A stretch of DNA of 41,798 bases, from NCBI GenBank assembly GCA_005777805.1, contig SXLG01000158.1, positions 1-41,798 of the forward strand, read 5' to 3'. The notes beneath the pieces were generated by a model, which was not told where the DNA came from, made no database searches, and saw only the letters and a list, made by a program, of their open reading frames with translations. The position numbers were made by a program, and so were the translations under genes. How positions within the stretch are numbered: the first letter of the stretch is position 1; every line of letters starts with the position of its first letter. Source of the stretch: Pseudomonadota bacterium. Lineage in GTDB: Bacteria > Desulfobacterota > Binatia > UBA12015. This document shows positions 30,901 through 34,452 of this stretch, one piece after another.

Positions 30901-33000
30901 ATGCCCAACTCAACGCTTTCAGGTTCGTGTCATGCCGGCGCCGGCCACGGCGTCGGGGGGTGCCGGCGCTCAGCGGGTGCAGCCGTCCTCGGCCTGCTCT
31001 TCGCGGCCAGCGTGCTGAACGCCGCGCCCGCCTCGGGTGCGAATCCGCTCGACCTCTGCCGCATGACGGTCGGCAAGGTGGCGGCCTCCTTCGCGAAGCT
31101 GCGGGCGCGCCAGATTTTCCGCTGTTCGCAGGATCAATCCTGTGACAGTGCCCGCGATGCGGCCGCCCTGGAAACAGTTCGCGAGCGCTCGCGCCAGCAA
31201 CTCGGTGTGGCCTGCGCGAGTCTCACCGGCGCGAGCCTCGGCATGGGCGACGTCTGTCCCGATGCCAGCGGCGTCTGTGACCCGTCGCTCGCGACGACGC
31301 CGGGACTGGTCGAGTGCATGGTCTGTCTGGTGGGTGGTGCGCTCGATCCGGTTCTCAAGCGCTTCAATGGCGCGGATGCCGCGGTCGCCGAGAGTTGTGG
31401 CGGCTGTTCAGCGACGCCCTGTATCGACGGCGCTTTCTGCGAGCCGCCACCGGGACACTGCACGGAGGCGACGAGTGCTGGGGTCTGTGTCGACCCGCCT
31501 GCGGCCTGCCCCGAGATCTCGCAGCCCGTGTGCGGCTGTGATGGCAACACCTACGACAACGATTGCGAGCGGCGGCGTGCGCTCGTCGGTCTCGCGCACG
31601 GGGGCCCCTGCCAGGCGAGTTGTGGCGCGACCAATGGCGACACCTGCCCGGCCGGGACCTTCTGTGATCCCGCTCCGGGGACGTGCGGCGACGGCGAGAG
31701 CGCGTGTGCCGCCGTGCCCGAGGCCTGCCCGGACTACGCGATGCCGGTCTGCGGCTGCGACGGCCAGACCTTCGACAACGATTGCCAACGTCGTCAAGCT
31801 GGCGTCGGGCTCCACCATTTCGGTGCCTGCCATGAATTCTGTGGAAGCGACGCGGCCGGAGATGCCTCCTGTTCCGACACGACGCGCTTCTGCGAGCTGC
31901 CACCGGGGATCTGCGGCGGCTCGAGCGTAGCGGGCAAGTGCATCGAGCGGCCGACCGATTGCGCCGTGGGCGACCAGCAGCCCGTGTGCGGCTGCGACGG
32001 CGAGACCTATCCGAGTGATTGCGAGCGGATGCGGGACGGGGCCGCCAAGTTGCACGATGGTGGCTGCCAGAGTTCGTGTGTCGACGCCTCGGACTGCGGC
32101 GTCGGCGAGATCTGCGAGATGATGCCAGGCTGGTGCGGCACGACGCTGCCAGGGCCGCTGCCGACGCCCGTGCCGTCCGGCCCGAACCCGTGGCCGAGCG
32201 GCGGTACTTGGTCGACCCCCGTGCCGTCGGGGCCGAGTCCCTGGCCCACGGGAGGTTCCTGGACGTGGCCGACGCCCATCATCTATCCGTTTCCGGCCGC
32301 GCGATCCGCCTCGACCATGCCGCCCATCATGATCTCCGGCCATTGCGTTGCCATGCCGGAGGCCTGCCCCGCCGATTTCCACGATCCGGTGTGCGGCTGC
32401 GACGGCCAGACGTATGCCAACGATTGCGAGCGGCAACGGAGCGGGGCTTCCCTCCAGCACTACGGTGCTTGCTACGCCGACTGCGCCCGCGACCCGACGC
32501 AGTGTGGCGAGGGTGAGTTCTGCATGGCGGGGTACGGTTGCGGCGCGAACGGTGGTCCGAGCATTTGCGCGCCGGTCCCGACCGAGTGTCCGCAGTGGGA
32601 GTTTCGCCCCGTGTGTGGCTGCGACGGCCACACCTACGACACCTTCTGCGAGGCTGCCCGTGCCGGTGTGAGCGTGTCCTTCGCGGGGATGTGTCCGACC
32701 GACCCGCCCGAGCCCGGCCCCGTTGGCGAGCCGTGCGGCCCGAACCTCTGCGCGCCGGGGATGAAGTGCATCAAGCCGCCGGGCCACTGCAACGATCCGA
32801 CGACGAGCGGGATGTGCATGCCCGCCACGGACATGACCTGCATCTCGATCTACGATCCGGTCTGCGGCTGTGATGGCCAGACCTACGGCTCCTTCTGCGA
32901 GACGATGCAGAACGGGATTCCAGTCGACCACTGGGGAGCGTGCTGGGGGCACGGATCACCGAGCGATGCGTTGATCGACCCCGTGCCGCCGCATTTCTGA
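30901..33000 (+). CDS. Secreted protein with six Kazal-like domains
   Basis: Exported protein of 699 aa, signal peptide with hydrophobic core AAVLGLLFAASVLNAAPASG. Residues 45-180 are a Cys-rich helical domain starting LDLCRMTVGKVAASFAKLRA. Six Kazal-like units follow, each with the core PVCGCDG-x-TY/F-x-x-x-C: near residues 205-237, 283-312, 361-391, 495-525, 570-598 and 653-683. Most are preceded by a Cys-containing linker of the FCE-x-PPG-x-C type. A Pro/Trp-rich stretch at 414-477 contains two copies of PVPSGP-x-PWP-x-GG-x-W. Kazal domains usually inhibit serine proteases from outside the cell. The P1 residues cannot be assigned confidently, so inhibition is inference. No other gene in the window requires it. 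Confidence 0.85.
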   Translation: MPNSTLSGSCHAGAGHGVGGCRRSAGAAVLGLLFAASVLNAAPASGANPLDLCRMTVGKVAASFAKLRARQIFRCSQDQSCDSARDAAALETVRERSRQQLGVACASLTGASLGMGDVCPDASGVCDPSLATTPGLVECMVCLVGGALDPVLKRFNGADAAVAESCGGCSATPCIDGAFCEPPPGHCTEATSAGVCVDPPAACPEISQPVCGCDGNTYDNDCERRRALVGLAHGGPCQASCGATNGDTCPAGTFCDPAPGTCGDGESACAAVPEACPDYAMPVCGCDGQTFDNDCQRRQAGVGLHHFGACHEFCGSDAAGDASCSDTTRFCELPPGICGGSSVAGKCIERPTDCAVGDQQPVCGCDGETYPSDCERMRDGAAKLHDGGCQSSCVDASDCGVGEICEMMPGWCGTTLPGPLPTPVPSGPNPWPSGGTWSTPVPSGPSPWPTGGSWTWPTPIIYPFPAARSASTMPPIMISGHCVAMPEACPADFHDPVCGCDGQTYANDCERQRSGASLQHYGACYADCARDPTQCGEGEFCMAGYGCGANGGPSICAPVPTECPQWEFRPVCGCDGHTYDTFCEAARAGVSVSFAGMCPTDPPEPGPVGEPCGPNLCAPGMKCIKPPGHCNDPTTSGMCMPATDMTCISIYDPVCGCDGQTYGSFCETMQNGIPVDHWGACWGHGSPSDALIDPVPPHF

Positions 33001-33023: not shown

Positions 33024-33061
33024 CGTCACGGTCCGGTCGCTTGCGTGGCCGGACCGTGACG
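33024..33061. terminator. Perfect 13-bp inverted repeat after the Kazal gene
   Basis: CGTCACGGTCCGG (33024-33036) and CCGGACCGTGACG (33049-33061) form a perfect 13-bp stem with a 12-base loop, starting 23 bases after the stop of the Kazal gene. This is the strongest hairpin seen in the window. No T-run follows, as is common in very GC-rich genomes. It probably ends the upstream message; a role as a protein-binding palindrome is also possible. Confidence 0.6.
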
Positions 33062-33285
33062 CGATGCTCGTGCGCCACGAGTGCGCTGCCGGCGCGCGGC
33101 AGAGCGCGCGTCGAGCACAATCGGCCCGCCCCGTCGAGAAGGACGGCCGTGGTGGGCGTGGTCCGAATCTGGGTTGTTTCGGCAGGGGGTGGATGCTCTG
33201 ATCGGCCCGGTCGCGAATTCGATCTCGTCACGTCCCGCGGGGGATCGTGCGGACCGACGGGGCGGAGCGCCTGGGAGGGCCGATC

Positions 33286-34452
33286 ATGATAAGTTTGTTT
33301 TACCGAAGCGCGAATGGCTTGGTGGCGATCGCGTTGCTGGCGCTGGGCGCACTCGTGTTCCCACCGCACGTCTTGGCTGCCAGCGCGGCCCCGGACCCGG
33401 CCAAGCTCCAGCAGCTCGTGGCTCCGATTGCCCTCTACCCCGATGCCCTCGCGGCCCAGGTCCTGATGGCCTCGACCTATCCGGTCGAGATCATCGAGGC
33501 GCAGCGCTGGGTGCAGGACAACCCCGACACCAAAGGCGACGCACTCCAGCAGGCCATGCAAGGGCAGAGCTGGAACGCCAGCGTCAAGTCGCTGACGGCC
33601 TTCCCGCAGGTCCTCCAGATGATGAGCGACAAGCTCTCGTGGACGACCGACCTCGGCAACGCTTTCCTGGCCCATCAATCTGATGTCATGAATGCCATTC
33701 AGACGCTGCGCCAGCGTGCGCAGGCGGCCGGCAATCTGGAGAGCAATGCGCAGCAGACCGTCACGGTCCAGAACCAGCCTGCGGGAACGCAGCCCCAGAC
33801 GATCATCATCGTCCCGGCCAACCCGCAGGTGGTCTACGTCCCGACCTACAACCCGACCCTGGTCTATGGCGTCTGGCCCTATCCCGCCTATCCGCCCTAC
33901 TATTATTACCCCCCCGGCTATGTCGCGACGGCCTCGCTTCTCTCCTTTGGTGCCGGCATGGCGGTCGGTGCGGCGCTCTGGGGCGACTGCAACTGGGGCC
34001 GTGGTGACGTCAACATCAACGTCAATAACTATAACCGATTCAACAACACCAACATCACCCGCAACCAGTGGCAGCAGAACTTCAATCAGCATCGTTCGAG
34101 CTGGCAGGCGGGCAATCAGCAACGCGCGGATCGTTTCGGCAAGGAGGGTTCCCTCTCGGACGCGCAGGCCCGCGACGCCTTCAAGGGGTGGGAGAACAAG
34201 GCGAGTGGGGACCGCGCCCGTTCGGGGGACGGTTTTGACCGTGACGGGAACCGGAGTGCGGGCGGTCGAAGTGACCGCGACCGGGGGTTCCTCGGAGGGG
34301 AGCGTGGCCTCGACGGCGACCGTGGCGGTGAGTTCGGCGGCGGTCGTTTTGGTGGCGACGGCTTCGGCGGCCGCAGCGGCGGCTTCGGCGGTGGTGGTGG
34401 TGGGAGGCGTGGCTTCGGCGGTGGCGGCGGTCGCGGCGGCGGCCGGCGCTGA
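33286..34452 (+). CDS. DUF3300 family exported protein
   Basis: Exported protein of 388 aa with a signal peptide (MISLFYRSANGLVAIALLAL to about VLAAS). The DUF3300 core spans about residues 38-220: KLQQLVAPIALYPDALAAQV, LMASTYPVEIIEAQRWVQDN, SVKSLTAFPQVLQMMSDKLS and VYVPTYNPTLVYGVWPYPAY. A helix-like Gly/Ala stretch and an Asn-rich region (INVNNYNRFNNTNI) follow. The C-terminus is extremely Gly/Arg/Asp-rich with many RGG-like units. All this is normal for the family, whose function is unknown. GGGAGG lies just before the ATG. The preceding 285-base gap holds the hairpin of the upstream gene and presumably its promoter; its stop is 64 bases before the TonB receptor. Confidence 0.88.
   Translation: MISLFYRSANGLVAIALLALGALVFPPHVLAASAAPDPAKLQQLVAPIALYPDALAAQVLMASTYPVEIIEAQRWVQDNPDTKGDALQQAMQGQSWNASVKSLTAFPQVLQMMSDKLSWTTDLGNAFLAHQSDVMNAIQTLRQRAQAAGNLESNAQQTVTVQNQPAGTQPQTIIIVPANPQVVYVPTYNPTLVYGVWPYPAYPPYYYYPPGYVATASLLSFGAGMAVGAALWGDCNWGRGDVNINVNNYNRFNNTNITRNQWQQNFNQHRSSWQAGNQQRADRFGKEGSLSDAQARDAFKGWENKASGDRARSGDGFDRDGNRSAGGRSDRDRGFLGGERGLDGDRGGEFGGGRFGGDGFGGRSGGFGGGGGGRRGFGGGGGRGGGRR

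Follow-up and report, generated by a model that had tools for sequence, protein, structure and literature searches.

A bacterial six-module Kazal-type protein with rewired cysteines and a layout like that of follistatin domains

Animal follistatin (FS) domains are mostly not inhibitors, and in the classical Kazal domain the first cysteine pairs with a cysteine of the helix (the 1-5 disulfide). The family consensus has a reactive loop of seven residues (PMC1236909, PMC4169406); its P3 residue is Cys and its P15' residue Asn (PMC1236909), and several Kazal inhibitors with Glu at P1 act on subtilisin (PMC3082530). In non-classical groups the helix bond is shifted or absent (PMC3082530, PMC4169406); GmSPI-2, which has two disulfides only, inhibits both subtilisin and proteinase K (PMC4169406) and a Kazal domain one disulfide short was found to be a stable subtilisin inhibitor (PMC1236909). 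Bacterial Kazal proteins are automatically annotated as protease inhibitors. No laboratory-tested bacterial Kazal protein was found in the open-access papers searched, where a single archaeal annotation (PMC6697440) was all that came to light.

The protein described here is encoded in a window (the whole stretch of DNA that was analysed) of 41,798 nucleotides. Its Cys pattern departs from the classical one and its modules are laid out like follistatin domains, and its family gives a sharp prediction of which units can inhibit, and what.

Gene and module architecture

Translation of the gene (Table 1) gives a product of 699 aa with 71 Cys, 69 of which remain without the signal peptide, and its ATG is preceded by a purine-rich GGGGGAGGGGCGACG leader. 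A signal peptide had been proposed in a sequence-only reading of the window, and a signal-like region is indeed seen at aa 1-46 when the sequence is read by eye, with no lipobox in that region; the protein is predicted to be exported. The inverted repeat beyond the stop codon is a possible end of transcription, and scans for sigma-70 promoters and for intrinsic terminators were both empty.

The same reading had counted six Kazal units with a common PVCGCDG-x-T-Y/F motif, lying downstream of a Cys-rich domain, and all three observations stand. Pfam Kazal_1 matched the protein in six stretches (E=8.1e-29; 99.8 bits against a cut-off of 21), Kazal_2 also scored above its cut-off (E=2.3e-24), the motif is present in 6/6 units and the Cys-rich domain upstream of them is 119 aa long. 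The same profiles gave zero matches in 14 control genomes and the Kazal_1 and Kazal_2 matches are far beyond chance; among NCBIfam models there was none that matched the protein. The true repeat is a module of ~70 aa with ten Cys, about twice the size of the Kazal core, the first third of which is a small Cys hairpin with CxxGxxC and the remainder the Kazal core itself. Five units of the protein were aligned with three units of a paralogue from its own genome, and all ten Cys proved invariant across the eight modules. The paralogue (G000:C146:6132-7736; L002:784-2388, +) is a protein of 534 aa with three 10-Cys modules and another N-terminal part.

Module 4 (aa 393-524) departs from this plan, as its Cys4 (residue 412) and Cys5 (residue 482) have 69 residues between them, against 6-8 in the other modules. 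A Pro/Trp-rich stretch had been noted as a linker between modules; the stretch exists, but it is an insert between Cys4 and Cys5 of module 4 and therefore parts the hairpin half of that module from its Kazal half. Within it are two tandem 17-residue copies of TPVPSGPxPWPxGGxW, a direct repeat at 32162-32212 and 32213-32263.

The N-terminal Cys-rich domain was modelled by AlphaFold as three helices (pLDDT 84.5). No Pfam family was found for it and no PDB fold matched at E<=0.001, the best match having an E of 1.5. Its profile matched 27 of the 148 genomes examined in the class, up to ten times per genome. The domain (31039-31395; loci L075-L104) represents an uncharacterised repeat family with six invariant Cys, in which a further Cys pair seems to be gained or lost jointly.

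Table 1. Positions of the gene, its parts and the downstream repeat in the window
Feature	Position	Strand	Basis
Whole gene, exported (predicted) six-module Kazal-type protein	30901..33000	+	translation, Pfam Kazal_1, Cys count
Signal peptide region (aa 1-46): hydrophobic GAAVLGLLFAASVL, then APASGA	30901..31038	+	sequence reading
N-terminal Cys-rich helical domain (aa 47-165), 8 Cys	31039..31395	+	profile matches, AlphaFold
Module 1 (aa 166-237), hairpin and Kazal core, CPEISQPVC, P1 Glu, P15' Asn, 11 Cys	31396..31611	+	
Cys169 codon, extra Cys of module 1 CGGC; candidate interchain cysteine	31405..31407	+	
Module 2 (aa 241-310), CPDYAMPVC, P1 Asp, P15' Asn	31621..31830	+	
Module 3 (aa 314-389), 8-residue loop CAVGDQQPVC, P1 position Val, without P15' Asn	31840..32067	+	
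Module 4, hairpin half (aa 393-412)	32077..32136	+	Cys spacing
Pro/Trp-rich insert within module 4 (aa 414-480, 67 residues)	32140..32340	+	Cys spacing, direct repeat
Module 4, Kazal half (aa 482-524), 8-residue loop CPADFHDPVC, P1 position Ala, P15' Asn	32344..32472	+	
Module 5 (aa 528-598), 8-residue loop CPQWEFRPVC, P1 position Gln, without P15' Asn	32482..32694	+	
Module 6 (aa 612-681), CISIYDPVC, P1 Ser, without P15' Asn	32734..32943	+	
Perfect 13-bp inverted repeat, 23 bp past stop codon, without T run	33024..33061	.	

Predicted fold and cysteine pairing

The Kazal identity of the six units is supported by sequence and by the predicted fold. An AlphaFold model of module 1, built on 49 sequences with the row from a plasmid record left out, had a mean pLDDT of 84.8, with values of 91-95 in the Kazal half and 64-85 in the hairpin half. 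The Kazal half of the model resembled leech tryptase inhibitor (1an1_I; TM 0.89 by target, rmsd 0.8 A), GmSPI-2 (4hgu; TM 0.84) and the third domain of ovomucoid (TM about 0.68, rmsd 1.2). For the module as a whole the top Foldseek match was follistatin (5jhw_D, probability 1.00, 79 columns) with a moderate TM-score of 0.49; E-values for this model were about 0.003-0.01, as expected at such a small domain size. A profile of 50 modules was colinear with follistatin positions 67-122 (E=9e-7) and with agrin (E=3e-12), while its Kazal part aligned to ovomucoid (E=2e-15) and GmSPI-2 (E=5e-12). Pfam FOLN was absent from the families matched by the 50 modules and the module is therefore termed follistatin-like in layout and not a member of the FS domain.

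A structural check for Kazal disulfides had been proposed and its outcome was divided: the hairpin, helix and strand of the fold are all predicted by AlphaFold, but the classical helix disulfide is missing. The helix Cys occurs in 0/6 units and an extra Cys, the second of CGCDG (below, the CGC cysteine), in 6/6. Co-occurrence of cysteines was examined in 100 distinct Kazal domains from all retrieved loci. In 92 of the 93 domains with the CGC cysteine another Cys lies 4-13 residues ahead of the loop cysteine, the sole exception being cut off by its frame start, and a Cys one residue ahead of the loop cysteine was present in 9/9 domains with the helix Cys, which were drawn from three genomes so that the counts are not independent. 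Six domains of one G222 protein have the helix pair but lack the CGC cysteine, three domains (G210, G216) contain all four Cys and thus both pairs, and one archaeal domain has neither, its only upstream Cys being lipobox-like. The simplest reading of this pattern is that there are two alternative bonds, one from GxC to the CGC cysteine and one from CxC to the helix, and that the pair which includes the extra Cys of CGCDG has apparently taken the place of the helix disulfide. If so, the family would offer a clear and countable disulfide exchange inside one fold, with rare intermediates carrying both pairs. Absence of the classical 1-5 disulfide is not decisive against Kazal membership, in view of the non-classical groups mentioned at the outset. 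Four single-module proteins (L139-L142) have a further Cys pair, with FCEC or FCQC in the hairpin and AGVC, AGAC, GGAC or AGTC after the helix, which suggests a bond joining both halves of the module.

The number of Cys in the mature protein is odd in all six orthologues (69, 69, 69, 59, 61 and 49, with 6, 6, 6, 5, 5 and 4 modules respectively) and follows 9+10n once an additional pair in a C-terminal tail is allowed for. Eight of the nine lie in the N-terminal domain; the remaining one, the second Cys in the CGGC that opens module 1, is found in module 1 of 6/6 orthologues and is absent from their other modules. Counting of this kind predicts, from an odd and conserved number, either a free thiol or an interchain bond, the latter giving a disulfide-linked covalent dimer.

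Distribution and gene neighbourhood

A search for homologues, which had been suggested as a check on lineage specificity, recovered the full architecture with the same N-terminal domain in six genomes from six genera and four families, all of one class. The five orthologues are 36-42% identical to the window protein. In the genome_contigs collection the whole protein matched only three loci, all of them distant. Modules in the same position are best mutual matches in the case of modules 1 and 2, and largely so for module 4, and the array is therefore probably older than the split of the four families. Of the 148 genomes of the class, 24 had a match to the module profile, irrespective of protein, as did 10 of the 198 genomes in the phylum of Parachryseolinea; in the one other genome of the same genus that was examined (88% complete) the module was absent. 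Kazal domains had been called rare in bacteria, which is a fair description given that Kazal_1 was found in 6/198 genomes of a phylum sample.

There were no neighbour genes consistently shared around the Kazal gene in the six genomes, the exceptions being one enzyme-like match in one region and a weak match in another, and it is thus regarded as a stand-alone gene; an operon or defence-island context was rejected on the same grounds. Carriage by phages or plasmids was also rejected, since a phage collection was without a match and the one plasmid record has a single module. The next gene on the 3' side (33247-34452, +) encodes a DUF3300 protein with a Gly/Arg-rich tail and is not conserved beside the Kazal gene.

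Related domains were met in other settings. A 1302-aa frame from the same class (G222; L066:514-4419, -) has four Kunitz/BPTI domains together with several Kazal domains that possess the leech-type helix cysteine, and so combines two animal-type inhibitor families within one bacterial protein. A single PVCGCDG Kazal unit is present in a small exported protein of IMG/VR contigs (L159:2908-3378, +, and L156-L158). The L159 protein has a sorting tail for type IX secretion, which suggests phages of Bacteroidota.

Reactive loops, function and known relatives

Alignment of the P1 position gave E, D, V, A, Q and S for modules 1-6, and because of this series trypsin is an unlikely target and a subtilisin-type protease fits better. 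The 7-residue loop and P15' Asn are both kept only in modules 1 and 2 of the window protein; the loop has eight residues in modules 3, 4 and 5 and P15' Asn is missing in 3, 5 and 6, so that each of modules 3-6 fails in loop length, P15' Asn or both. When modules 1 and 2 of the six orthologues were taken together the 7-residue loop was found in 12/12, P15' Asn in 11/12 and Asp/Glu/Gln at P1 in 11/12, with Lys/Arg in 0/12. The corresponding figures for modules 3-6 were 14/20, 14/20 and 11/20. Across all 32 units of the six proteins P1 was Asp/Glu/Gln in 22/32 and Lys/Arg in 0/32. These loops suggest that the target would be subtilisin-type (S8) or Glu-tolerant proteases and not trypsin, and as P1-Glu inhibitors act on subtilisin (PMC3082530) two dependable heads against subtilisin-type proteases are predicted.

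The explanation put forward, in which our confidence is evenly poised, is that the protein is an exported, stand-alone, multi-head Kazal-type inhibitor, with subtilisin-type proteases as its targets and two heads that are dependable. Each module would join a disulfide hairpin to a short Kazal core and present a rigid reactive loop between the second and third Kazal cysteines. The loop would enter the active site of the protease like a substrate and be cleaved slowly or never, which is the canonical mechanism established for the Kazal family and presumed here, and would be braced by a disulfide from the pre-loop Cys of GxC to the CGC cysteine in place of the one to the helix. Modules 1 and 2 would act as the dependable heads, modules 3-6 look relaxed and may be spacers or have drifted, and the odd conserved Cys near the N-terminal domain would link two chains. 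Inhibition of several external proteases at once, as had been envisaged from the sequence, is possible; inhibition by all six units is not supported and predators or competitors as targets are a guess. Against an inhibitor it counts that an acidic P1 could be found in a non-inhibitory scaffold too, that three of the window's six loops are one residue too long, that the animal FS domain, the nearest in layout, is mostly non-inhibitory and that no protease gene is linked in the six genomes.

Such a scaffold, extracellular or periplasmic and built of rigid, disulfide-locked binding units like those of follistatin, agrin and SPARC, is a serious though tentative alternative, in which the Kazal loop would be an architectural relic and the ligand a polysaccharide, the envelope or another protein. 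The follistatin layout of the whole module in Foldseek and the colinearity of its profile with follistatin and agrin point in this direction, as do the loss of loop length or P15' Asn in the C-terminal modules, the fusion to a repeated, class-specific helical domain and the long Pro/Trp insert. However, loop length and P15' Asn are preserved in modules 1 and 2 across six genera and the predominance of Asp/Glu/Gln at P1 is not random. It is unlikely that a bacterial lineage has a follistatin-type module of its own with the helix disulfide swapped for one at the hairpin turn, whose covalently dimeric tandem arrays would bind extracellular ligands and not proteases. Regulation of the cell's own exported subtilisin-type proteases, as opposed to defence against outside ones, is quite improbable: the window's genome does have several S8 peptidase genes, but the orthologue-bearing G226 (95% complete) is without an S8 match, which gives slight weight against an internal target, G233 has weak ones only and none of the six genomes shares a protease gene near the Kazal gene. 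Although it is animals that typically have Kazal and follistatin-like domains, there is next to no chance of a contaminating or recently acquired animal sequence, with bacterial genes flanking the locus left and right (CitMHS transporter, enoyl-CoA hydratase, DUF3300, TonB receptor), a GC typical of the window, a Cys pattern not found in the animal relatives retrieved and, refuting contamination, the orthologues in other genomes of the class.

Among described proteins the multi-head inhibitor put forward here is likened to Phytophthora EPI1 and shrimp SPIPm2, which have tandem heads, are directed at subtilisin and tolerate an atypical disulfide set. EPI1a is without Cys3 and Cys6, whereas the window modules are without the helix pair, and neither EPI1 nor SPIPm2 has the hairpin half. 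Bacterial proteins annotated as "Kazal-type serine protease inhibitor family protein", such as that of Eleftheria terrae (WP_301260565.1), have the same 10-Cys module, with 50% identity over the matched part, but have a single module and another N-terminal part. GmSPI-2, domain 1 of CrSPI-1 and leech LDTI, non-classical Kazal proteins of MEROPS family I1, share with the module the C6-x7-C7 loop, as in modules 1 and 2, the PVCGxDGxTY hairpin, the short helix and the short C-terminal strand, and the LDTI loop CPKILKPVC may be set beside CPEISQPVC of module 1. The module differs from them in its mostly acidic P1 and in that the helix disulfide gives way to the CGC cysteine and to a Cys placed 6-7 residues ahead of the loop. 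A follistatin-like two-part module outside animals bears on whether such modules had a single origin or arose by repeated fusion. With the animal FS domain of follistatin, agrin, SPARC and FSTL1 the bacterial module shares ten Cys, the CxxGxxC hairpin and the order of hairpin then Kazal core; it differs in a longer Cys4-Cys5 spacing and in the absence of Cys9, the helix partner of Cys5 in the FS-domain disulfide, in place of which the CGC cysteine has been added.
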